Positions 14,324 through 27,309 of a DNA stretch of 64,000 bases are shown piece after piece. Numbering within the stretch: the first letter of the stretch is position 1; each line of letters begins with the position of its first letter. The position numbers and the translations under genes were made by a program. This DNA comes from Methanobrevibacter gottschalkii DSM 11977. Its GTDB lineage: Archaea > Methanobacteriota > Methanobacteria > Methanobacteriales > Methanobacteriaceae. The notes under the pieces were generated by a model, which was given only the letters and a program-made list of their open reading frames with translations, did no database searches and was not told the origin of the DNA. Location: NCBI RefSeq assembly GCF_003814835.1, contig NZ_RKRG01000001.1, positions 558,001 to 622,000 on the forward strand. The letters are read 5' to 3'.

Positions 14324-14490
14324 TTTTCATTTAATATTTCTTTTTTATTCAATTTAATTTTATTTTTATTATTATTTATTTTATTAAAATTTTCTTTAGA
14401 AAAAATTAAATATATATTAATTAATATTCATTATTATGTGTTAAATTAATAATTTAGTTTAATACAATAATTGTGGTGAGGTTAAATATC

Positions 14491-17400
14491 ATGAAATATT
14501 CTAAGTTATTTTTGATATCTTTTGTCTTATTGTTTTTCATTGTAAGTGCTGTTAATGCTTTAGATGCATCTGAAATTACTTTGAATGCAGATAATTCTAT
14601 TGATGAAATATCTAATGAAGATATGGGAATACTTAATGAAGTTTCACCCTCAAATGATATAAAACATATTTATGTAAACGATACTGGGGATGATTCAAAC
14701 ATAGGTTCAATTAATAGTCCTTATTCTTCAATAAGCAAAGCAATTGGTGATGTTAATTCGTCTACAAATACAACGATATATTTAAGTAAAGGAACTTTTG
14801 GAAAAAATAATGATACTAATTTTCAATTTACAAATGAAATAAATACTTATTTTGATAATTGTAATGTGACTTTTATTGGTGAGGGAACTGATAAAACATT
14901 TATAGATGGTAAATCAACATATAAATTCATGACTATACTGGAAATCACTCCTAATTTAGTTTTTAAAGATATTACATTTGTTAATTTTAGAGGACGGGGG
15001 AGTTCTGTTTTTGAACTTTTGGAAGCAGGAAATTTAACAATTGATAATTGTGTTTTTAAAGATTCATATTCTACTAGTAATGGTGATACAATTTCATCTT
15101 CAAATAGTGGTGATTTAAAAATTATTAATTCTCAATTTATTAATTCAAATGGTGGAATAATTAGTTTATTATATGAGGATGTATCTCCCGGAACTCTTTA
15201 TTTAGAAAATAATACTTTTGTAAATATTACTAATTCTGAAAATAATGGAATTGCAGTTACTAGTAATTATGCTAAAGCAGTGATTAAAAATAATAAATTT
15301 AATAATATCACTTGTATTAATCAAAATCAAGTTACCCTTTATTTAGAAGCTCCCGATGAAGGTACACTTGTTTTAACTGATAATAATTTTGTTAATTGTG
15401 AGTGTTTAAATGAATATTTTATGGCTCCAGTATATTTGTGGGCATATGAAGAATATGTAATATTTGAAAGAAATATATTCTTAAATTCTACTGGTGCTTC
15501 TGGATTCAATATATTGCTTAATGGTAGAATGGATAATTTAAATATTAGTATAGGTGCTGATGAGATTAATGTTCATAATAATGAAATTAATCATGGTGTA
15601 AATATTCCAATTAATATAACTGATGATGTAGGAAACTTAGTTTTAATTAATAGTGGAATTCAACTTAATCTTATAGGTGATAATAACAATTATACTCCAT
15701 ATTTAAGTTTAAAAAATAAAAAACTCACATTTGCTACTGTTCCTGAGAGTGGCATTTATAATGTAACTATCACATATAATGATGGGTTATCAACTACTGA
15801 AGTGTTAACTATTATAAAAATTAATATCTCTAGTAGTCCTGTTAATATTTGGGTATCTCCTAAAGGTTCAGATTCAAATAATGGTAGTGAAGAAAACCCA
15901 TTTAAGACAATTCAGCATGCAATAGATACGGGATTTGAAAAATCATTCAATGTCATAATATATTTAGATGAAGGAATTTATTATGGTGAAAGTAATGTTA
16001 ATTTAATAATTACGAATAAAGGTAGTCTTCAAATTATCGGAAAAAAATATAATAAAACTATTATTGATGGGGAACATTCAAATTGGTTTTTGAGTGTTGA
16101 TACTTGTGATGTTGAAGTTAAAAATTTAAAATTCATTAATGGTGCTGGAAATAAAAATTTAATTTCTGGTTCAAATTTACTTAATCTTAAAGATTGTATT
16201 GTAGATAGTAATATTGCTTCAAGAAATTGTTATGTTTTACATCAAACATTATTTGATAATTTAACTTATACAAACAATACTGGTACAATTTATTATAATT
16301 ATAATAGAAATATTACAAAATCAAATTTTATTAACAATAAAAATATTTATGATTCTACTGGTATTATTTATAGTTCTTGGGCTCCTATAATTATTCTTGA
16401 TTGTAAATTCATTAATAATACTGCATTATATGATTATGGTGTAATATACTCTAATAACAACATTATGAGTCTTAATAATTACTATTATGGAAATAAAGCT
16501 AAAAATTATGGAATATTCTATGCTTCGTCTTATTCTAGTAATAAAATGATTTTAATAAATGATACATATATTAATAATCACGTAGATGGATCATATGGAA
16601 TTGGAATTTCACCATATTCCTCTGTAGTAAATTGTAAATTTATTAATAACTCTGCTGGTACAGATGCGGGCATAGGTAGTATAACAATTACCTGTTCATT
16701 TAAAAATTGTTCATTCATAAATAACAGTGCTACTAAGGGCGGTGTTTTTGTATTAAATGCTGTTCAACATGCATTGGGCACTACTTATGAAGAACTTATT
16801 TCATTTGACAATGTAACTTTTGAAAATAATAAAGCTAGCATGGGTGCTGATATTTATCTGCCTCCAAGAAGTTCAAATTCCTATTACTCATATACATATC
16901 CTATTGAATTAACAATTACCTTTGATAATATTACTGTTACTTCCTTAACTGATAATTTAACTGCTAGTGTTTATGGAGTTAATGGAATAATTGTTGGAGG
17001 TGCAATTCTTGAATTTTATTTAAACGAGTTATATATTGGTTCTTCTCAAATTGTTAATAGTAATGCAATTTTAGAATATGATGGTTTTAGTAATGGAAAA
17101 GCTATTGTTAATGGAAATATTATTCATCCTTCTGTAAAAAATAATATAAATAATGCAACATTAGATATTAAATTAGATAATGTATTAAATCATATTGATT
17201 TCTGGGTTTCAAACATAGGTAGTGATGAAAATGGCGATGGTAGTAAAACTAAGCCATTTAAAACAATTCAATATGCTGTTAATAAAGCATTTGAAAATTG
17301 TCGTGATATTACTATCTATCTTGGAGAAGAAACATATTCTGGTGAGAATAACACTAATTTAACTATTTCAAGTGCAAGTAATATAACAATAATTGGTAAA

Positions 17401-19752
17401 GGAATTGGTAAAACAATTATAAATGGTGGTAATAGCAGTTATTTTGTAAAAATTCTCATAGGCATTAATAAAATTATTATTAGTGATTTGACTATTATTA
17501 ATATGACTCCAGATAATAGATTTGATCTTCCAATTGGTTCTACATCACCATCAGGTATACATAGTATTATTAAAAGTGGTTCCACATCACCAATCACTGT
17601 TGATAAGGGAGCAACATTATATTTAAATAATGTAAATATCACAGAATGTCGTGGAGGTAATGCTATAATTGATGGTGAAGGAAACATTTTCATTGATAAT
17701 TCCATATTATATAAAAATGGAGTTTCAAAGGGCATTATTAAATGTGAAAATTTAGTAATTAATAATTCAATAATTGATAAACATTTAGTTGGAGGTTATC
17801 CAATAATAGGAACGAACATTATAATAAATAATACTAAAATTACAGATGTATTTAATATTATTAGAAATGGATTTTATTTTATCTCCAATGCTAAAAATAC
17901 TACTATTGAAAATACATGTGTTTTAATTAATAATTGGGAAAATCCATTAAATATATTGGATATTATTGAATATTATGATACTCAAATATGTCCTGCAGCT
18001 TGTATTGCTTCAACTAATGCAATAATTAAAAATTCATCATTTAAAAATGAATTTGAATTAGTGTATTTATGGCAATCAACTACTGATTATTCATATCATA
18101 ATGTTTACTCAGGATCTAATATTGAAGCAGTTAATTCTTCATTCGAAGGTTATCAATTCATTATATATTCTAGAATGCTTCAAAATCCAATATATAAGTT
18201 CGATGGATGTACATTTAATAATATTGCTAATTTGATGATTATGATGCAATCTAGAAATTCTATAGTATCTTTTTCAAATTCTGTAATGTTCATATCAGGC
18301 AATAAAATTGCAAGTAATAATGCATTTAATAACTCTTTCCTGTTTAACAATAATTATTGGGGTAATAATTCAAAACCCGTAATTCCAAACTCTGTATCTA
18401 ATTTCCAAATACCTTCTCCAGATAATTGGATTATTTTAATTTCTGAAGGAGAAGAACCAGTATTTAAGCTTACAGATGGGAAAAATGTCACTGAGTATAT
18501 ATGTAATTTGCCAGCTAAAATATCTTATGTTGCCGATGAAAATGGTGAAATCATTCCTGTTTTAAATTTAAACGGTAATGGATATAAATTTAATGTGGAT
18601 GAAAACGGTAATGTTGTTCTTAATATCAGTGCTCCGATGAAAAATATTGTTCCTAAAGTTCCAGTTGATGAAACTGTATTCGCAAATGATATTGAAGTTA
18701 TTGTAAACTCTTCTTCTAACTTTAAGGCTAAATTCACTAATAAATGGGGCGATTCATTAAAAGGTATTAATGTTTCATTCATCATTGGTGAAAATATTAT
18801 CAATATAATTACTAATGAAAATGGTACTGCAATATTGCCTGTTGACTTTGATTTAGGAGTATATTTTGTTAAAATTGTTAATCCAGTTACTGGTCAATTT
18901 ATTTTCAAAACTATTGATGTGATACTTGAAAACACGGTTACTGCAAACGATATTATTGTAAAGTACAATGATAAATCTAAATTCTCTGTTATTTTTACTG
19001 ATAAATTTGGAAATCCGTTAATTAACACTAATGTCAAATTTAAAGTAGGAAAGTATATTATTAATAGAACTACTGATGAAAATGGTATTGCTTCATTTGT
19101 TATTAACTTCAATGTTGGTAATTATGCTGTAAATACTATTAATCCAGTTACTAATCAAAGTATTGATAAAATAATTACTGTTAATAAAATAGCTACTAAA
19201 TTAACTTCTCCTAAATTAACTGTAACTTATAATGCTGGTAAATATTTAACTTTAATTTTAAAAGATTTTAATGGAAAAGCATTGATTAATCAAAAAGTTT
19301 CTATTAAAATTAATGGTAAAGTTTACACTAAAATTACTAATTCTAAAGGACGATCTAGTTTAAAAATTAATCTCCCTGTTAAAACATACATTACAACATT
19401 AACCTATGCAGGAGATAGAAATCATATTAAATCCTCTGCAACTACTAAAGTTATAGTTAAAAAAGCAACTCCTAAAATGACTGCTAAAAAAGCAACTTTT
19501 AAATTAAAAACAAAAACTAAGAAATATTCAATTATTTTAAAAGATAACAGGTATAAAGTTATGAAAAAAGTTAAAGTATATCTTAAAGTAAAAGGTAAAA
19601 CTTATAGAGCAATAACTAATTCCAAAGGAAAAGCAACCTTTAAGATTACAAAATTAACTAAAAAAGGAAAATATTCGGCTAGAATAAAATATTCAGGTAA
19701 TAAATACTTTAATTCAATAACAAAATATGTAAAAATAACAATTAAAAGATAG
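14491..19752 (+). CDS. Giant adhesin-like surface protein, three beta-helix modules plus four Ig-like repeats
   Basis: About 1753 aa. The ATG at 14491 is preferred over the GTG at 14473 because GGTGAGGTT lies between them and the ATG begins a proper signal peptide (MKYSKLFLISFVLLFFIVSA). Three beta-helix modules each open with a 'GSD.N.GS...PFKTIQ.A' signature, near residues 65, 455 and 907. About four Ig-like repeats follow from residue 1397, and the last two are lysine-rich and end in IKR, like the first adhesin. A likely promoter TATA (ATATAT near 14410) and a 167-bp gap separate it from the upstream gene, so it may be a separate transcript. Probable wall-bound adhesin; target unknown. Confidence 0.85.
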   Translation: MKYSKLFLISFVLLFFIVSAVNALDASEITLNADNSIDEISNEDMGILNEVSPSNDIKHIYVNDTGDDSNIGSINSPYSSISKAIGDVNSSTNTTIYLSKGTFGKNNDTNFQFTNEINTYFDNCNVTFIGEGTDKTFIDGKSTYKFMTILEITPNLVFKDITFVNFRGRGSSVFELLEAGNLTIDNCVFKDSYSTSNGDTISSSNSGDLKIINSQFINSNGGIISLLYEDVSPGTLYLENNTFVNITNSENNGIAVTSNYAKAVIKNNKFNNITCINQNQVTLYLEAPDEGTLVLTDNNFVNCECLNEYFMAPVYLWAYEEYVIFERNIFLNSTGASGFNILLNGRMDNLNISIGADEINVHNNEINHGVNIPINITDDVGNLVLINSGIQLNLIGDNNNYTPYLSLKNKKLTFATVPESGIYNVTITYNDGLSTTEVLTIIKINISSSPVNIWVSPKGSDSNNGSEENPFKTIQHAIDTGFEKSFNVIIYLDEGIYYGESNVNLIITNKGSLQIIGKKYNKTIIDGEHSNWFLSVDTCDVEVKNLKFINGAGNKNLISGSNLLNLKDCIVDSNIASRNCYVLHQTLFDNLTYTNNTGTIYYNYNRNITKSNFINNKNIYDSTGIIYSSWAPIIILDCKFINNTALYDYGVIYSNNNIMSLNNYYYGNKAKNYGIFYASSYSSNKMILINDTYINNHVDGSYGIGISPYSSVVNCKFINNSAGTDAGIGSITITCSFKNCSFINNSATKGGVFVLNAVQHALGTTYEELISFDNVTFENNKASMGADIYLPPRSSNSYYSYTYPIELTITFDNITVTSLTDNLTASVYGVNGIIVGGAILEFYLNELYIGSSQIVNSNAILEYDGFSNGKAIVNGNIIHPSVKNNINNATLDIKLDNVLNHIDFWVSNIGSDENGDGSKTKPFKTIQYAVNKAFENCRDITIYLGEETYSGENNTNLTISSASNITIIGKGIGKTIINGGNSSYFVKILIGINKIIISDLTIINMTPDNRFDLPIGSTSPSGIHSIIKSGSTSPITVDKGATLYLNNVNITECRGGNAIIDGEGNIFIDNSILYKNGVSKGIIKCENLVINNSIIDKHLVGGYPIIGTNIIINNTKITDVFNIIRNGFYFISNAKNTTIENTCVLINNWENPLNILDIIEYYDTQICPAACIASTNAIIKNSSFKNEFELVYLWQSTTDYSYHNVYSGSNIEAVNSSFEGYQFIIYSRMLQNPIYKFDGCTFNNIANLMIMMQSRNSIVSFSNSVMFISGNKIASNNAFNNSFLFNNNYWGNNSKPVIPNSVSNFQIPSPDNWIILISEGEEPVFKLTDGKNVTEYICNLPAKISYVADENGEIIPVLNLNGNGYKFNVDENGNVVLNISAPMKNIVPKVPVDETVFANDIEVIVNSSSNFKAKFTNKWGDSLKGINVSFIIGENIINIITNENGTAILPVDFDLGVYFVKIVNPVTGQFIFKTIDVILENTVTANDIIVKYNDKSKFSVIFTDKFGNPLINTNVKFKVGKYIINRTTDENGIASFVINFNVGNYAVNTINPVTNQSIDKIITVNKIATKLTSPKLTVTYNAGKYLTLILKDFNGKALINQKVSIKINGKVYTKITNSKGRSSLKINLPVKTYITTLTYAGDRNHIKSSATTKVIVKKATPKMTAKKATFKLKTKTKKYSIILKDNRYKVMKKVKVYLKVKGKTYRAITNSKGKATFKITKLTKKGKYSARIKYSGNKYFNSITKYVKITIKR

Positions 19753-19900: not shown

Positions 19901-21239
19901 CCAAACTTTTATTATAAATGGGTGACAAATTATAAAATATGTCTGGAAAATCTAAGATTAATGTTTTTAACAAAATGACAAAAACTGCTTTGGATGAAGA
20001 AATTAGTGCTTATGTGGCTTATCATAGGTACTATCAAAGGCTAATTGCAGTTAAAATAGTTAGTGAAGGAAATACAATTCTTGATGCTGCAAAGATATTG
20101 GGAAAATCCTATCAAACTGTTCATAGATGGATAAAAACTTGTGAATCTGAAGGATTGGAAGGTTTAAAACCGTCTTTTGGTGGTGGAAGACCATCAAAAT
20201 TAACTTATGATCAACTGATGGAATTGGATAAAATTATTGAAAAAACACCAAACATGTCAATGAAAGACGTACATATTCTTGTTAATGAAAAATTCAATGT
20301 AAATTACAGTTTAAAACAAATAGGAAAAATTGTAAGAAAATTAGGTTACAATTATAGCAAAGCATGCCCAAAATTTTCAAAATCCCTTGAAGATGCAGAA
20401 GAACAGTTAAAAAAACTTAAAAGAACATAATGTAACATCAAACAATATTATAGTCTTATTTGATGAAGTATCATCTTAAAAGGAGCCTTGCACTTAAAAA
20501 TCATTATATGAAAAAAGAACAAAACACACAAACTGTAAATCCGTACAAATTCAAAATAAAATGCCACATGATCATTTAGCAATTAATGGAAATTCAACAA
20601 TCACAATTACAAATTCCTCAACAGCACCAGAAATAGTAATGGTCATTTTAGAATTAAGATGTGCTAATACAAAAAATAAAAATTCCACAAAATCATTAAA
20701 TAAAATAATTGAAGAAGTTAAACTAACAAATGAAGAAATATATAAAATTTTAATGGAAAATAATGAAAATAACATAGTTTTCAGAGAAAAATTATAAAAA
20801 TATTTGAAAAATATAAAAGACAATACAACATCAACAATAGCTAGAATAATTGGAAAAGACTGTAATAGGGAATCAATAAATAATATTAAAAAAAGAGAAA
20901 TAAGAAGAAAAATAACTTTAAATATACTATAAAAGAAAATATAATAACAAAAATGTAAACAGAACAAAGAATATGTTTGATTCTCGATAATTATAGTGCC
21001 CCAAATCAGAATTCATCAAAAAAATAGCACTACGCTTCAATATTACATTAATATGCCTTCCACATGCTCCCATCACTTAAATCCAATAGAAAAAATATGG
21101 AGACAAACGAAACGAGAAATAAAACATCATTATCTCAAAAGAATTTTTACATGAATTAATTATAAAAACATATAATAAATCGGTTTTGAAAACAAAAGTT
21201 CATGACAAATGGCTCGAAACATTTATAACAAAAGTTTTG
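19901..21239 (+). mobile_element. Decayed IS630-type insertion sequence with terminal inverted repeats
   Basis: The left end CCAAACTTTTATTATAAATG (19901-19920) and the reverse complement of the right end CAAAACTTTTGTTATAAATG (21220-21239) match at 18 of 20 positions. They bracket a frameshifted IS630-like transposase, giving an element of about 1.34 kb. The right repeat lies within the last codons of the transposase. TA dinucleotides lie next to both ends, as expected for IS630 insertion. The exact outer boundary is uncertain by one or two bases. Confidence 0.75.
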
Positions 21240-21564: not shown

Positions 21565-22890
21565 TTGTTTGAATCATTGAAAAAGAAATTTTCACGTACA
21601 AGTGAAAAGCTAGAAGAAGAACTTATTGAAGAGGCTGAAAAAGAGGACAATCTTCAAGAAGAAGAGGGTAAAAAGTTTTCTTTCTTTTCATTTGGAAGTA
21701 AAAAAGAAAATATGGAAGAAGATGAGTCTAATTTACTTTCTGAAGCTGAAGGGACTGTAGGAAAAGAAACTGAAAATGAAATTCCCGGAGGAGACTCTAT
21801 TGAAGAGGATGTTGATGAAAAATCAGGTTTACTTTCCAGATTGAGAGGTTCATCTGCTAAAGAAAATATTGAAGAAACTTCTGATGAAGAAAAAATCATT
21901 GAGGAATCGCAAGATGAGGAAAAATCTCACTTCTGGAGCAGGAATAAAGACAATGAAGATAATTCTGTTGATGGTGAGGCTGGTGGTGGGATATTCTCTT
22001 TTGTTCGTGAAAAAACCATTCAGGAAAAACATGTGGAGGATATATTATTTGAACTGGAAATGGAGCTCTTACAAGGTGATGTTGCAATGGAAGTGGCTAA
22101 TGAAATTGTAGAAAGTGTAAAAGAAGACCTTGTAGGTAAAAAAATCAAAAGAAGTAATGATATTACTGAATACACATTTTTAGCTTTAAAAAATGCAGTA
22201 TCTGATATCATCAGTATTCCAAGTAAGTCTATGACTGAAATGATTGAAGATAAAAAAGCTGAAGGGGGGCCGTTAGTTGTAATGTTTGTTGGAATAAATG
22301 GTACTGGAAAAACAACAACTATTGGTAAACTGGCGAATTTCTATATGAAAAAAGGTTATACTCCCGTTATTGCTGCTTCAGATACTTTCAGAGCAGGGGC
22401 TATTGAACAAGTGACATATCATGCTGATAATGTTGGCGTTAAAATAATTAAGCATAAAAAAGGTTCAGATCCGGCGGCTGTTGCATATGATGCTGTTGAA
22501 CACGCCCGTGCACAAGGAAAAGAATTAGTCTTAATTGATACTGCTGGTAGGATGCAGACTAATACTAATCTTATGGATGAAATGAAAAAGATTAAGAGAG
22601 TTTCAAAACCAGATTTAGTAATATTTGTAGGTGATGCTTTAACAGGTAATGATGCAACCGAACAAGCTAAGAAATTCAATGAAGCTATTGATATTGATGG
22701 CGTAATATTGACCAAAGCCGATGCGGACAGTAAAGGAGGAGCCTCACTTTCAATCGGTTATGTAATTAAAAAACCAATTCTGTTCCTTGGTATGGGTCAG
22801 GGATATGATGATATCATGGAATATGATTCTGAATGGATGTTAAATCAGTTATTCAGTGATAATGATGAATCTGAAATCATAGAGGATTAA
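21565..22890 (+). CDS. ftsY: Signal recognition particle receptor FtsY
   Basis: SRP receptor GTPase that docks ribosome-SRP complexes at the membrane. The 441-aa protein has a long acidic, low-complexity N-terminal A domain (residues about 1-145) and then the N domain helices (about 150-225). The G domain carries GINGTGKTTTIGKLANF (P-loop, near 242), DTFRAGA, DTAGRMQTN (G3), TKADADSKGG (G4) and a final GMGQGYDD closing motif. The start is TTG at 21565 with GGTTGG upstream. The acidic domain is longer than in many methanogen FtsY proteins. The next gene starts immediately after the TAA. With three giant secreted proteins upstream and exported ones downstream, an SRP receptor fits the setting. 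Confidence 0.95.
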   Translation: MFESLKKKFSRTSEKLEEELIEEAEKEDNLQEEEGKKFSFFSFGSKKENMEEDESNLLSEAEGTVGKETENEIPGGDSIEEDVDEKSGLLSRLRGSSAKENIEETSDEEKIIEESQDEEKSHFWSRNKDNEDNSVDGEAGGGIFSFVREKTIQEKHVEDILFELEMELLQGDVAMEVANEIVESVKEDLVGKKIKRSNDITEYTFLALKNAVSDIISIPSKSMTEMIEDKKAEGGPLVVMFVGINGTGKTTTIGKLANFYMKKGYTPVIAASDTFRAGAIEQVTYHADNVGVKIIKHKKGSDPAAVAYDAVEHARAQGKELVLIDTAGRMQTNTNLMDEMKKIKRVSKPDLVIFVGDALTGNDATEQAKKFNEAIDIDGVILTKADADSKGGASLSIGYVIKKPILFLGMGQGYDDIMEYDSEWMLNQLFSDNDESEIIED

Positions 22891-23973
22891 ATGAAAATCA
22901 GTAAGATTAATTTAATCTTAAGCGTGGTTTTAGCTATTTTAATTACAATGGCTACAACTGCATCACTTTTATCAAATGCTAACGATTCATTTTCAAAAGC
23001 AGAGCCAAAAGGGAATGTTTCAATAGCTATCACAGGGGATGTTATGTTTGCTCGTAACATGCCGGGTGTTTTAAGTGCTGATTCATCTCCTTTTTCAGGT
23101 GTCAGTAATGTAACTTCCAATGTTGATTTATTACTGATTAATTTTGAAAATGCGGCCACTTCTTCTGAAAATGCAGTTAAGGGTGATGTTCCACTTAAAT
23201 GTGACCCGAGATATGTTCCACTTGCAAAGGGGAACAATAACACAATAGCTTCTCTTGCAAATAATCATGCATTTGATTATGGTATTGATGGAATGAAGGA
23301 TACAATTGAAAACCTTAAAAATGCAGGAATAACGCCCATCGGTGCTGGTGAAAATGAAAAAACAGCGCATAATGCAGTAACTCAGGAAATTAATGGTAGA
23401 AATATAACCATATTAAATTATATGGATTCGGACAACTTTGCAGAATATTCTTATGATGTAATGCCTTATGCAAATGGTTCTAATCCCGGTTACTCCGTAT
23501 TTGACCTAGCAGATGCACAAAAGCAGATTAAAGAAAATAATGGCTCTGATTTGATTGTAGTTTATATGCACTTTGGAAATGAATATTCAAACTCTCCAAA
23601 TGACAATCAAGTTAAAATTGCGCATGAATTAATAGATTCTGGTGCAGATGTGGTTTTAGGATCTCACCCTCATGTGACTCAGGGAATTGAGATGTATAAT
23701 GGAAAACCGATATTTTATAGTTTGGGAAACTTCATATTTGACCAATCAAACCCCGCAACGCACTCTGCTTACTTTGTTCAAATTGATCTTGTAAATAATA
23801 CTGGTGAATGCAGTGTTTATCCAATTGTAATTTCGGGATACCTGCCGCATTATATGGACTCAGATAGCGGTAATTCATTATTAAATGAATTGAATCCTAA
23901 TGCTGATGAATTAGAAGTTTCAAATGGTGTTGGTAAATTAAGATTTAATTTAACGGAAGGCGATTCAAATTAA
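22891..23973 (+). CDS. CapA/PgsA-type exported metallophosphoesterase
   Basis: A 360-aa protein of the CapA family, calcineurin-like phosphoesterases named for bacterial poly-gamma-glutamate capsule synthesis. An N-terminal signal anchor (residues about 6-30) puts the catalytic domain outside. Visible motifs are ITGDVMFARN (near 48), INFENAA (near 85), SLANNHAFDYG (near 115), GSHPHVTQG (near 256) and FYSLGNFIFDQ (near 275), which carry the His, Asp and Asn ligands of the two-metal site. The ATG abuts the ftsY stop (TAAATG) with GAGG upstream, so translation is coupled. Its true substrate here is unknown. Pseudomurein contains gamma-glutamyl bonds, so a wall role is possible but inferred. Confidence 0.85.
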   Translation: MKISKINLILSVVLAILITMATTASLLSNANDSFSKAEPKGNVSIAITGDVMFARNMPGVLSADSSPFSGVSNVTSNVDLLLINFENAATSSENAVKGDVPLKCDPRYVPLAKGNNNTIASLANNHAFDYGIDGMKDTIENLKNAGITPIGAGENEKTAHNAVTQEINGRNITILNYMDSDNFAEYSYDVMPYANGSNPGYSVFDLADAQKQIKENNGSDLIVVYMHFGNEYSNSPNDNQVKIAHELIDSGADVVLGSHPHVTQGIEMYNGKPIFYSLGNFIFDQSNPATHSAYFVQIDLVNNTGECSVYPIVISGYLPHYMDSDSGNSLLNELNPNADELEVSNGVGKLRFNLTEGDSN

Positions 23974-25756
23974 GTATAAATATTTGGGCATTCTCACTTT
24001 TATTTTATTGGCACTGATGATTTCTTGTGTTAGTGCAGGCGATAGTGAGATGCAACAAGTGAATAATGATAGTGTTGACTCAGCTAATCAGTATGTGGAA
24101 CCAGTGAAGAATGCTTCTTTTAGTAAGGTTAGTAATACTAATTATCTAAAGGATTCAAATTTCACTGTAAGTTTAAAAGATGAAAATAATGAAGTAATTG
24201 TAAATAAAACAGTTTATTTCACTATTGATGATGGATTAGTAATAAATACAACAACCGACGGGAAAGGCAGTGCAAAACTATTATTGAATATCTCAAAAGG
24301 AACACACACTGTCAAATACATATTTAATGAAACGGGATTTACTCCATTTAAATCTTCAACTAAAGTTCTTGTTATTACAACATCAAATTCTAAGATAAAA
24401 GCGTCAGCTTATAAATCTTACATCGGCTTTAAAAAACATTATTCCTATGCTAAACATATCAGCTTTAAAAATACATATAAGATTACATTGACTGCTGATG
24501 GAATTCCGTTATCAAATAGGATTGTTAAATTTACAATCAACGGAAAATCTTATAGTAAAAAAACAGATTCAAAAGGAGTGGCCAGCCTTCCTATTGGTTT
24601 AAAGGCAGGCAGATATCCTATTAAATTTTCATATGCTGGTGAAAAAAATATTAAAAAAGTCAGTGGAAGCTCTATTGTATATGTAATTAAGGGCATGCCT
24701 AAAAAGATAATTAAAGCAAATTCACTGACTTATAAAAATAAAGTTTCAGCCCCATTTAAAATAAAATTAGTTAATGGGCGAGGAAACATACTTAAAAATA
24801 AAAAAGTAACATTCACTCTTGATGGCAGAACATATACAAAATACACGGACAATAATGGTATTGCAACCATATACCTTAAATTAAGTTGGGGAACTCATAG
24901 TTTAAAAGTTTCATCAGCCAAGACTTCTTATTATAAATCTGTTTTAAAAAAATATTCTATCCATATAAAATCTAAGGCGGTTAATAACGGACTTTGGATG
25001 TTCAGTTCGGATATGAAAAAAGCAAACTTAGCATCACTTAAAAAGGTTGGAACAAAACATATTTTCCTTTATGCAAAAGCAATTGATGTATGGGGCAGAT
25101 CGGATGTTGAGAAATTTATCAAAACTGCATCTGGTTATGGTATTAAGGTTCATCTCTGGATGAAAGTGTTTAATGATGACAATGATAAATGGATTAATCC
25201 GGTTAAAAAGGGCAAAATCAACTATGGTCTGATAAAATCAAAAATTAATCTTGCTAAAGAATATGCGAAAGTAAAAGGGGTTGCTGGAATTCATTTTGAT
25301 TATTTGAGATATCCCGGCAATGCTTATAAATATTCAAATGGTGTAAATGCAATCAATTACTTTACAAAAGCTGCAACTAGTGCAATTCATGCAATTAATT
25401 CAAGATTCATTGTCTCAGCAGCAGTAATGCCGGAACCATCAGATATGAAATATTACTATGGTCAGGATATTTCAACAATGGGCAAGTGTTTGGATGTAAT
25501 CATTCCAATGATTTATAAAGGCAATTATAATGCGGGATCTTCCTGGATTCAAAAAACGACTCTAAAATTTGTTAAAAAATCAGGTCATGCTAAAATATGG
25601 TCTGGAATTCAGACTTACCATTCTGATAGGTCTCCGATAAAGCTGACTTCATCTGCTTTACTTAAAGATGCTGATGCGGCGGCTGCAGGTGGAGCAGATG
25701 GGGTAATTTTATTTAGGTATGGTCTAACTAATTTGATTAACTTTAATAAGTTATGA
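23969..25756 (+). CDS. Exported Ig-repeat protein with glycosidase-like TIM-barrel domain (copy 1)
   Basis: About 595 aa. A signal peptide is followed by three Ig-like repeats (residues about 40-335) of the type in the giant adhesins. The C-terminal domain of about 255 aa looks like a TIM-barrel glycosyl hydrolase, with TKHIFLYAKAID, YGIKVHLWM, AGIHFDYLRYPG (probable catalytic Asp region), SAAVMPEP and DVIIPMIYKGNY. I place the start at ATT 23969: GGAAGGCGAT sits four bases upstream, and only this start gives a complete signal peptide beginning MKYKYLGILTF. The alternative TTG at 23984 has no ribosome site and loses the charged N-region. The gene overlaps the capA end and continues into a paralogue. 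A cell-wall glycan substrate is likely but unproven. Confidence 0.75.
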   Translation: MKYKYLGILTFILLALMISCVSAGDSEMQQVNNDSVDSANQYVEPVKNASFSKVSNTNYLKDSNFTVSLKDENNEVIVNKTVYFTIDDGLVINTTTDGKGSAKLLLNISKGTHTVKYIFNETGFTPFKSSTKVLVITTSNSKIKASAYKSYIGFKKHYSYAKHISFKNTYKITLTADGIPLSNRIVKFTINGKSYSKKTDSKGVASLPIGLKAGRYPIKFSYAGEKNIKKVSGSSIVYVIKGMPKKIIKANSLTYKNKVSAPFKIKLVNGRGNILKNKKVTFTLDGRTYTKYTDNNGIATIYLKLSWGTHSLKVSSAKTSYYKSVLKKYSIHIKSKAVNNGLWMFSSDMKKANLASLKKVGTKHIFLYAKAIDVWGRSDVEKFIKTASGYGIKVHLWMKVFNDDNDKWINPVKKGKINYGLIKSKINLAKEYAKVKGVAGIHFDYLRYPGNAYKYSNGVNAINYFTKAATSAIHAINSRFIVSAAVMPEPSDMKYYYGQDISTMGKCLDVIIPMIYKGNYNAGSSWIQKTTLKFVKKSGHAKIWSGIQTYHSDRSPIKLTSSALLKDADAAAAGGADGVILFRYGLTNLINFNKL

Positions 25757-25767
25757 CAGGTAATCTT

Positions 25768-27309
25768 ATGATGAATAAATTAAGTGTATTTATTGTTATA
25801 ATTATCATAGCACTATCTATTTCTTCGGTATGCGCTGGTGATAGTGATCATAATAAGACGGACGATTCAATTCTTGGGGAAGCTGATACGTCAACTTCTT
25901 CAAATATTACTCGCATTGGTGTGAATTCAATATATGATGATGGGGTAAATGAAACAATAAAAACTAATTCCTCTTTTGTATCTTCTAACGTAGTAACTTA
26001 TGAAACCTTTTCAACCAAAATAACTGTCAGATTATTGTCGAATAACAATCCATTAAATGGAAAAAATATTATTATTTCTGTCGGTAATGTTTCATACAAT
26101 AAAACCACTGATGCTAATGGTAAAGTTGTTTTAAATGTTAAACTCGCAAAAGGAAAGTATAATGCAATGTTTTCTTATGGTGGGGATGAAAACATTAATC
26201 CTTGTCAAAAAACAACTACTGTAATTGTTAAAACTCCCATCAAAACAAAAATTTATTGTGCAGATAAAAATATTAATTATAGGCAAGATTTAAAGAATAC
26301 CTTCATTGTCCGTTTGATTGATGGGAATGGAAAAGCTCTTAAAAGTCAAACTGTAACTTTTAAAGTCAATGGTAAGATGTATATTGCAAAAACCGATAAA
26401 AAGGGTTATGCTGAAGTTTGTTTAAACTTAAAAAAAGGGTCTTTCACTGTCGGATTTTCATTTTATAAAAAATCACCGTATTCACATTCTCACGGATCTT
26501 ATAAAATAAAGGTAAAAGCTCCAATTGGAAAAGGTAACGGGTATTGGCTTTGGCCAGCTCATATGAAACATTTGAATCTCAAATCCCTTTCAAAACTTGG
26601 AACAAAACATATTTTCTTACATGTGCAGGCTATTTCAGTTTATGGAAAATCTTCTGTTATTTCTTTTGCTAAAAAAGCACACAGATATGGGATTAAAGTT
26701 CATCTGTGGATGCAAGTATGTTGTATTCGCGGGGATAAATGGGTTCGTCCTGTTAACAAAGATGGTTCATTTAAATATTCATTTATAAATAAAAAAGTCA
26801 AAGAAGCAATCAGTTATGCTAAAATACCCGGCATTGATGGGGTTCACTTGGATTATGTCCGTTTTGGCGGAACTGCTCATTTGTATAAAACATCTACACA
26901 ATCTATAAATTATATTGTTAAAAAAACAAGTTTGGGAATTCATAAAGTTAAACCTAATTGCATTGTTTCTGCTGCAGTCATGCCCGAAATTTCAAAGATG
27001 ATTTCTTGGTATGGTCAGGATATTCCTACAATGGGAAAATATTTGGATGTGATTGTTCCAATGGTTTATAAAGGTAATTTTAATCAAAAAACTGCTTGGA
27101 TTACAAAAATTGTAAGTAAATATAAATCACAATCAAAAAGTGCTGTAATCTGGGGCGGTCTTCAGACATACCACTCAGATAATAATGTTAAAAAATTGTC
27201 TTATTCCGCACTATTGAAAGATGCAAAATCCTCTAAAGCTGGCGGAGCTACTGGTTCTATACTGTTTAGAATTGGACTAACTCATTATTTGAACTTTAAA
27301 AAAGTTTAG
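25768..27309 (+). CDS. Exported Ig-repeat protein with glycosidase-like TIM-barrel domain (copy 2)
   Basis: Paralogue of the preceding gene, about 513 aa, in the same operon. The ATG at 25768 is chosen because AGG lies seven bases upstream and the product begins MMNKLSVFIVIIIIALSISSVCAG, a clear signal peptide; the ATG at 25753 overlaps the previous stop but has no ribosome site of its own. It has two Ig-like repeats (about 60-155 and 160-250) instead of three. The barrel domain is conserved: TKHIFLHVQAIS, GIKVHLWMQV, DGVHLDYVRFGG, SAAVMPEI, DVIVPMVYKGNF, WGGLQTYHSD. The Asp in the putative active-site strand is kept. Tandem duplication with changed repeat number suggests related roles at different reach from the membrane. 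Substrate unknown. Confidence 0.82.
   Translation: MMNKLSVFIVIIIIALSISSVCAGDSDHNKTDDSILGEADTSTSSNITRIGVNSIYDDGVNETIKTNSSFVSSNVVTYETFSTKITVRLLSNNNPLNGKNIIISVGNVSYNKTTDANGKVVLNVKLAKGKYNAMFSYGGDENINPCQKTTTVIVKTPIKTKIYCADKNINYRQDLKNTFIVRLIDGNGKALKSQTVTFKVNGKMYIAKTDKKGYAEVCLNLKKGSFTVGFSFYKKSPYSHSHGSYKIKVKAPIGKGNGYWLWPAHMKHLNLKSLSKLGTKHIFLHVQAISVYGKSSVISFAKKAHRYGIKVHLWMQVCCIRGDKWVRPVNKDGSFKYSFINKKVKEAISYAKIPGIDGVHLDYVRFGGTAHLYKTSTQSINYIVKKTSLGIHKVKPNCIVSAAVMPEISKMISWYGQDIPTMGKYLDVIVPMVYKGNFNQKTAWITKIVSKYKSQSKSAVIWGGLQTYHSDNNVKKLSYSALLKDAKSSKAGGATGSILFRIGLTHYLNFKKV

Follow-up and report, generated by a model that had tools for sequence, protein, structure and literature searches.

What cuts the glycan of the pseudomurein wall? 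Methanogens with this wall grow and divide inside a cross-linked polymer, so something must cut it. In the available parts of two papers the pseudomurein hydrolases named are endoisopeptidases only (PMC2989375, PMC12596118); a third, also available in part, gives just two peptidoglycan-hydrolase homologues for the pseudomurein classes (PMC12352652), the word 'hydrolase' is absent from the accessible main text of a paper on the pseudomurein biosynthesis genes (PMC11915815), and no pseudomurein glycosidase was found in the accessible portions of the literature searched on pseudomurein hydrolases. Here, we analysed a stretch of 64,000 nucleotides from Methanobrevibacter gottschalkii DSM 11977 (contig NZ_RKRG01000001.1, positions 558,001 to 622,000; hereafter the window, whose own positions are used throughout), in which two adjacent genes 3' of ftsY and a capA gene code for exported proteins, named A and B here, with immunoglobulin (Ig)-like domains and a C-terminal barrel. 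A and B are probably exported enzymes that cut the pseudomurein glycan, i.e., autolysins, with residues D107 and E152 of the barrel in the active site. More tentatively, and with some doubt, we propose that the barrel is the glycosidase or lytic transglycosylase so far missing for pseudomurein, retained throughout the Methanobacteria and shared with their viruses, that it forms an autolysin set with transglutaminase-type endoisopeptidases, A included, and that the AUU start of its genes is a class-wide translational brake. New are a candidate enzyme for cutting the pseudomurein glycan, found class-wide and shared with viruses, and an apparent AUU start common to several genes; ftsY and CapA as neighbours, and the Ig domains as spacers, are ordinary. 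The main features of A and B are as follows:

23984-25756, + strand: protein A, with three Ig domains between a signal peptide and a C-terminal barrel; 590 amino acids from a TTG start, 595 from ATT
24146-24973, + strand: the three Ig-like domains of A, approximate (PF02369 E 2.5e-15, PF16640 E 3e-15, three stretches each)
24980-25753, + strand: barrel of A, 258 amino acids, a PF13200-like TIM barrel (PF13200 E 8.9e-12; predicted structure)
25298-25300, + strand: codon of D107, barrel of A, where strand 4 ends; an Asp proposed to be catalytic or to stabilise an intermediate (invariant in 35/35 barrels)
25433-25435, + strand: codon of E152, barrel of A, loop after strand 5, proposed second carboxylate (invariant in 35/35 barrels)
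25753-27309, + strand: protein B, 518 amino acids, with two Ig domains between a signal peptide and a C-terminal barrel; start perhaps at 25768 or 25771
25984-26517, + strand: the two Ig-like domains of B, approximate (PF16640 E 2.7e-9, PF02369 E 2.4e-9)
26533-27306, + strand: barrel of B, 52-53% identical to that of A, retaining the D (26851-26853) and the E (26986-26988)

In the mechanism that we propose, the signal peptide would export A and B, the Ig domains would act as a spacer, and the C-terminal PF13200-type barrel, with D107 and E152 in its active site, would break the glycosidic backbone of N-acetyltalosaminuronic acid and N-acetylglucosamine, by hydrolysis or by lytic transglycosylation, in the service of wall growth or division. 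Transglutaminase-type endoisopeptidases would work alongside, cutting the cross-linking peptides, and longer paralogues and methanogen-virus proteins would carry both activities and the pseudomurein-binding repeat (PMBR) on a single chain. CapA and ftsY would be conserved neighbours, outside the mechanism. If this is true, the enzyme would fill a gap in archaeal cell biology and offer a second activity, beside that of the Pei enzymes (see below), with which methanogens of the rumen and gut could be lysed and their DNA extracted.

A predicted glycosidase-type barrel with two invariant carboxylates

The barrel of A matches PF13200 (DUF4015, 'putative glycosyl hydrolase') with 45.2 bits, above the curated cut-off of 27 bits, and a third barrel paralogue of this genome, L093, scores 39.1-41.5 bits; the barrel of B is borderline, with 25.9 bits alone (E 6.5e-6) and 27.3 bits with its neighbours in frame. 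The archaeal branch covers only profile positions ~104-241 of 313 and has an invariant MPE motif. No PF13200 member with a known activity was found in the accessible literature, where one paper names the domain, in the legend of a figure that deals with YkyA fusions of bacteria (PMC12700454). An NCBIfam search of A and B gave nothing useful, a BFVD fold search with the barrel gave general glycoside hydrolase (GH)-like matches only, and in PHROGs the barrel of A fell into no named family, matching one of unknown function (E 0.0016).

A structure model of the barrel of A, built from 37 sequences, has a mean predicted local distance difference test score (pLDDT) of 96.1 and a predicted template modelling score (pTM) of 0.92. 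Foldseek gave PgaB (E 3.7e-9) as the best solved match, with Cwp19 (E 1.6e-8) further down, whereas VIA-align placed Cwp19 at the top (Z 23.6, root-mean-square deviation 3.1, 249 residues aligned, 14% identity), followed by PgaB, which acts on deacetylated poly-N-acetylglucosamine and whose C-terminal glycoside hydrolase domain (PgaB/BpsB) is likewise a TIM barrel (Z 21.9), and then by GH18 chitinases (Z ~20-21). In a sequence-profile search the best solved relatives were 4s1a (E 1.4e-9), GH18-like proteins and Cwp19 (E 4.7e-4). The predicted fold is that of a GH-type TIM barrel near a wall lytic transglycosylase, which bears out the 'glycosidase-like barrels' of an earlier reading of this DNA made from the letters alone (hereafter the sequence-only reading).

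Fourteen positions are invariant in an alignment of 35 diverse barrels: W60, G103, D107, Y108, R110, E152, Y160, Q162, D172, M177, Y179, W189, Y213 and F245. This alignment (A6) consists of the two window barrels, both of which retain these residues, and 33 of 41 candidates, a set that excluded 17 loci of near-duplicate long proteins and L131, L160-L162, L164, L166 and L167; in a separate alignment E152 is found in at least 90% of 37 sequences. DSSP of the model puts D107 at the end of strand 4 and E152 after strand 5; the two lie on the catalytic side of the barrel. Judged from the alignment, in which D107, E152, R110 and Y179 are invariant, the barrel family does not carry the signature of a pseudo-enzyme. 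The sequence-only reading had singled out the lack of an active-site carboxylate pair as one of two results that would speak against it; what the model places at the catalytic end is an invariant pair, D107 and E152.

GH18 chitinases have a DxxDxDxE motif with the catalytic Glu. We rejected the barrel as a plain GH18 member: its strand 4 reads GxHxDYxR, and the position of the Glu is non-acidic in all 35 aligned barrels. The closest solved fold is that of Cwp19 (GHL10, PF02638), which is exported and wall-acting and shows an Asp-Tyr in strand 4, a Tyr in strand 6 and a Gly in place of the strand-7 Glu. According to the parts of the papers at hand, Cwp19 of Clostridioides difficile has lytic transglycosylase activity on peptidoglycan (PMC6016235), and its probable active-site residues are Asp196-Tyr197 and Tyr297, the strand-7 Glu being replaced by Gly328 (PMC5765458). 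The counterparts here, paired by motif and strand, are D107-Y108, Y179 and the Gly of WxGLQ; the strand-7 Glu of PgaB (PMC5765458, in part) is also Gly in the barrel family. Besides its low identity, Cwp19 differs in its murein substrate, in wall binding through CWB2 and in that the same portion of PMC5765458 describes no counterpart of E152, which could be the partner carboxylate that Cwp19 lacks. PF02638 itself matched 3 of 28 distant barrels, whereas neither A nor B matched it at E 0.1.

Two side observations concern barrels elsewhere. In four from other genera (L153, L154, L155 and L156) the loop that follows strand 3 holds a Tyr/Lys-rich insertion ~80-100 residues long. Two others from one genome (L151 and L152, G138), whose genes lie 28 kb apart, share a long identical stretch in otherwise different proteins, which points to a recent gene conversion or duplication.

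Barrels joined to wall-binding and peptide-cutting domains

The third paralogue, L093, is a protein of 1314 amino acids with, in order, a signal peptide, Ig domains, the barrel, PMBR (E 1.4e-31) and Transglut_core (E 8.3e-24), together with a weak match to Peptidase_C71 (E 5.9e-4); its barrel is 51% identical to that of A over the full length. Among L093 and its relatives (set A3), PMBR was found in 23 of 25 proteins and Transglut_core in 22, and among barrel proteins of other genera (set A4) in 17 and 9 of 28, respectively, both sets being hand-picked samples and A3 deliberately one of long frames. In one barrel protein (L150, G150) the PMBR block is repeated in near-identical copies, possibly a recent repeat expansion or an assembly effect.

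Viruses carry the barrel as well. Two scans of IMG/VR gave eight distinct metagenomic viral contigs with clear barrel copies (a ninth match, at 23% identity, was set aside), and IMG/VR is the only source of viral copies, a tblastn search of an annotated phage collection with the barrel of A having given no match. PMBR is present in six of the eight. By eye, the proteins of L114, L116, L117 and L165 end in a Cys-His peptidase-like domain and that of L115 has a transglutaminase-like domain, and in L119 a separate protein with C39-type and PMBR domains is encoded just 5' of the barrel gene. Terminase (E 1.4e-104) and portal (E 1e-36) genes accompany the barrel gene in L118, and L114 has a gene for an integrase. 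Viral proteins that join both activities would be ready test material.

Bacterial autolysins and endolysins combine a glycosidase with a peptidase. Because the barrel is repeatedly joined to pseudomurein-binding and peptide-cutting parts, in cells and in viruses, we take it as their glycan-cutting partner, and on its sequence and modelled fold it would most likely cleave the pseudomurein glycan. These fusions also support pseudomurein as a target, one of two named by the sequence-only reading. The endoisopeptidases PeiW, PeiP and PeiR act on the same wall polymer, have PMBR domains, are used by phages or viruses and resemble the domain partner in the barrel fusions; they are, however, cysteine peptidases on the peptide cross-link (PMC2989375, in part), not TIM barrels, and the domain search found no Pei-type Cys-His-Asp peptidase domain with PMBR in A or B. 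PMBR and transglutaminase domains likewise occur together in adhesin-like proteins of Methanobrevibacter smithii, in Group III (the transglutaminase type), and one adhesin-like protein of this species has a 'putative glycosyl hydrolase domain'; in the sections available, these proteins are regarded as adhesins and that domain is given no wall-lytic role (Gupta and Seedorf 2024, PMC11532034).

An apparent AUU start shared with endoisopeptidase-like genes

For A, no ATG, GTG or TTG precedes the hydrophobic core of the signal peptide, except a TTG that would drop the basic N-terminus. With an ATT codon as start, followed by KYKYLGILTFILL, the signal peptide of A is again a normal one, and A likely starts there:

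23959-23964, + strand: GGCGAT, likely ribosome-binding site of A, within the end of capA (its position matches GGTGAT/GGTGAA of relatives)
23969-23971, + strand: ATT, proposed start codon of A, overlapping the capA stop (GGTG/GGAGG precedes ATT in many relatives)

The barrel genes fall into several length classes (A-type, B-type, ~930 amino acids and long). By a criterion set in advance, a canonical start before the core is missing from 18 of the 34 genes of the A-type, 4 of 5 of the ~930-amino-acid class, 7 of 44 of the B-type and 1 of 25 long ones, a few of these cases being artefacts of the core finder. A ribosome-site scan, rough in that it includes spurious open reading frames (ORFs) and truncated duplicates, gave ratios of AUU/AUC/AUA to canonical starts of 23:4 for A-size barrel genes and 72:279 for other ORFs. 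These two counts are fairer than the share of ATT in our start alignment, which is biased because its 46 rows (two without a pattern match) were chosen for alike N-termini.

The apparent start signal, GGAGG(C/T)GGTAAA-AUU or GGTGAAAAA-AUU, is found at barrel and transglutaminase-type endoisopeptidase-like genes across Methanobacteria (window 23969-23971; L150, L153-L157, L169-L190, L198-L215). A genome-wide search located GGNGGNGGTAAAATT at 35 places in 23 genomes, compared with one for a reversed control. In 29 of 30 matches fetched, an exported protein begins exactly at the ATT: 7 are barrels, 18 are transglutaminase-type (11 by motif, three by Pfam and four by a related or longer copy), two are small unknown proteins and two are cut by contig ends; the remaining match lies, by eye, inside a sugar-phosphate mutase-like gene and looks like chance. 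Similarly, GGTGRANRNATTTCRAWWA occurs 18 times (20 genomes) against none for the control, and 17 of the matches start either barrels (7) or an Ig-rich protein (10), full copies of which, in this genome and two others, end by eye in PMBR and transglutaminase-like sequence.

A conserved AUU start is thus apparently common to wall-lytic genes, and its presence in A supports placing A in the autolysin set. The arrangement suggests that a translational brake may act on wall-cutting enzymes; if this is true, archaea would here provide an unusual example of control through the initiation codon.

Two kinds of protein with the same start deserve mention. An exported protein of 972 amino acids encoded in the same genome (contig C2, L216:2880-5795) carries Ig repeats, and PMBR as well as a transglutaminase-like domain can be made out by eye; it has an apparent AUU start and is a candidate second wall hydrolase of this genome. 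L179 and L194 are small exported basic proteins (179 and 163 amino acids) with Cys/His-rich C-termini and the same start signal; a Pfam search gave no match for L179.

Target and activity of A and B

Several points weigh against A and B as pseudomurein glycan-cutting enzymes. The domain search found neither a pseudomurein-binding repeat nor a peptidase domain in A or B, so that their target is read from their relatives. The shared fold does not fix the specific bond, PgaB and GH18 being nearly as close as Cwp19 (Z ~20-22), and Cwp19 is said to have no clear second carboxylate (PMC5765458, in the portion available). L131, a homologue of 926 amino acids outside the A6 alignment, deviates from the MPE motif. 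Finally, the barrel was not found in 18 of 151 Methanobacteriota genomes, five of them among the 91 best; as all 18 are expected to have pseudomurein, the enzyme would be dispensable in places.

The lack of PMBR, together with the adhesin-type Ig spacers, would also suit active glycosidases with another target, such as glycans of partner bacteria or of the gut, or those of the cell's own surface layer or adhesins, the pseudomurein link then holding for the PMBR paralogues only; moreover, the two groups, A and B, have moved apart in sequence (53% identity) and form just one of several classes. This we regard as unlikely, since the barrel of A aligns over its whole length, at the identity given above, with that of a PMBR/endoisopeptidase-type paralogue, since A and B retain the invariant residues and since the gene of A has a start signal common to wall-peptidase-like genes.

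It is more improbable still that the barrel lacks catalysis and serves as a glycan-binding module, tethering surface proteins to pseudomurein. Chitinase-like lectins of the same fold are among the structural matches, and nothing else in A or B is an obvious wall anchor. A module of this kind, however, would fit poorly with acidic and aromatic residues that are invariant at the catalytic end of the model, with the presence of the barrel in proteins that already have PMBR, and with its retention by viruses.

Spread, gene order and the place of CapA

An alignment profile of the barrel found it in 133 of the 151 Methanobacteriota genomes (20/20 genera), and a separate search matched it in 122 of 138 genomes of the family (17/17 genera). 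As far as the barrels are concerned, the failure to co-occur in relatives that the sequence-only reading had named as counter-evidence was not observed. CapA was found in 88 of the 138 family genomes (8/17 genera), and ftsY in 125 at E 1e-60 and in 65 of 67 same-genus genomes. In a hand count over the 65 genomes of the genus in which ftsY was located, with barrel matches listed down to E ~3e-76, CapA lies directly 3' of ftsY in 42, and one or two barrel genes lie 3' of ftsY on the same strand in at least 38 (at least 26 after CapA and at least 12 without CapA); in at least seven, G051 included, a barrel gene of the ~930-amino-acid class is directly 5' of ftsY. Several of the remaining loci end at contig ends. 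Given this recurrence, the gene order is not due to chance. In G041 the order is ftsY, CapA, SNF transporter, with CapA overlapping the transporter gene and no barrels between, from which the barrels look to have been inserted or lost between CapA and the transporter.

The two genes that precede A in the window are:

21565-22890, + strand: ftsY, signal recognition particle receptor (TIGR00064 E 2.9e-102, PF00448 E 1.3e-75)
22891-23973, + strand: CapA/PGA_cap-family exported metallophosphatase-like protein with an N-terminal hydrophobic anchor (PF09587 E 3e-71, 240 bits)

ORF and domain calls confirmed CapA, A and B as the sequence-only reading had described them, including three Ig repeats in A and two in B. 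That reading had also counted ftsY within 22891-27309; ftsY lies outside, and is a housekeeping gene that merely anchors the locus. The four genes share one strand, with junctions said to be of zero to four bases. This holds for ftsY/CapA, where CapA starts on the base after the ftsY stop, and for A/B, where the first ATG of B overlaps the A stop by four bases, but not for CapA/A, where the gap is 10 bases from the TTG start of A; if A starts at the ATT, as is likely, its start overlaps the capA stop. For B, a start at ATG-ATG (~25768-25773) fits the preceding AGGTAAT better than does the first ATG.

Is CapA a partner of the barrels? A hand table of the 138 family genomes gave 79 with both, 43 with the barrel only, 9 with CapA only and 7 with neither (Fisher p = 0.58; incomplete genomes blur the counts), and in other genera of the family CapA is located elsewhere in most cases parsed. 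We therefore rejected CapA as a barrel partner: it is probably a neighbour, and the dedicated wall set including CapA, whose trio had been expected to co-occur in relatives, is not upheld. Solved relatives of CapA are PDB entries named poly-gamma-glutamate synthesis protein (8gq9 and others, E 5.3e-16), and its sole NCBIfam match, to the MslH lasso-peptide epimerase model, is far below the cut-off. The poly-gamma-glutamate system (CapABC/PgsBCA) has a CapA/PGA_cap member here, but the PgsB/CapB ligase model TIGR04012 gave no match at E 0.001 in this genome of 1.88 Mb, which is 99.98% complete; synthesis of this polymer, and with it the gamma-linked target also suggested for the barrels, is unsupported. 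That ftsY, CapA, A and B work as one functional unit to make or trim a surface polymer that depends on CapA (gamma-linked) is very improbable: the common strand and the recurrent order after ftsY speak for it, and the independent presence of CapA and barrels, the missing PgsB match, the barrels after ftsY without CapA, the order in G041 and the separate location of CapA in other genera speak against it. One genome contains a broken second capA copy with several stops (G060:C21:67851-68898) and an intact copy elsewhere.

On the 3' side of B lie a small opposite-strand ORF, DUF4258-like by a weak match under the cut-off, and then an SNF-family transporter. Further upstream, on the far side of ftsY, the window encodes a 1759-amino-acid adhesin-like protein (14473-19752) with repeats that by eye are beta-helix-like and with C-terminal Ig domains, and a 163-amino-acid winged-helix protein (19939-20430) resembling the N-terminal part of an IS630-type transposase.

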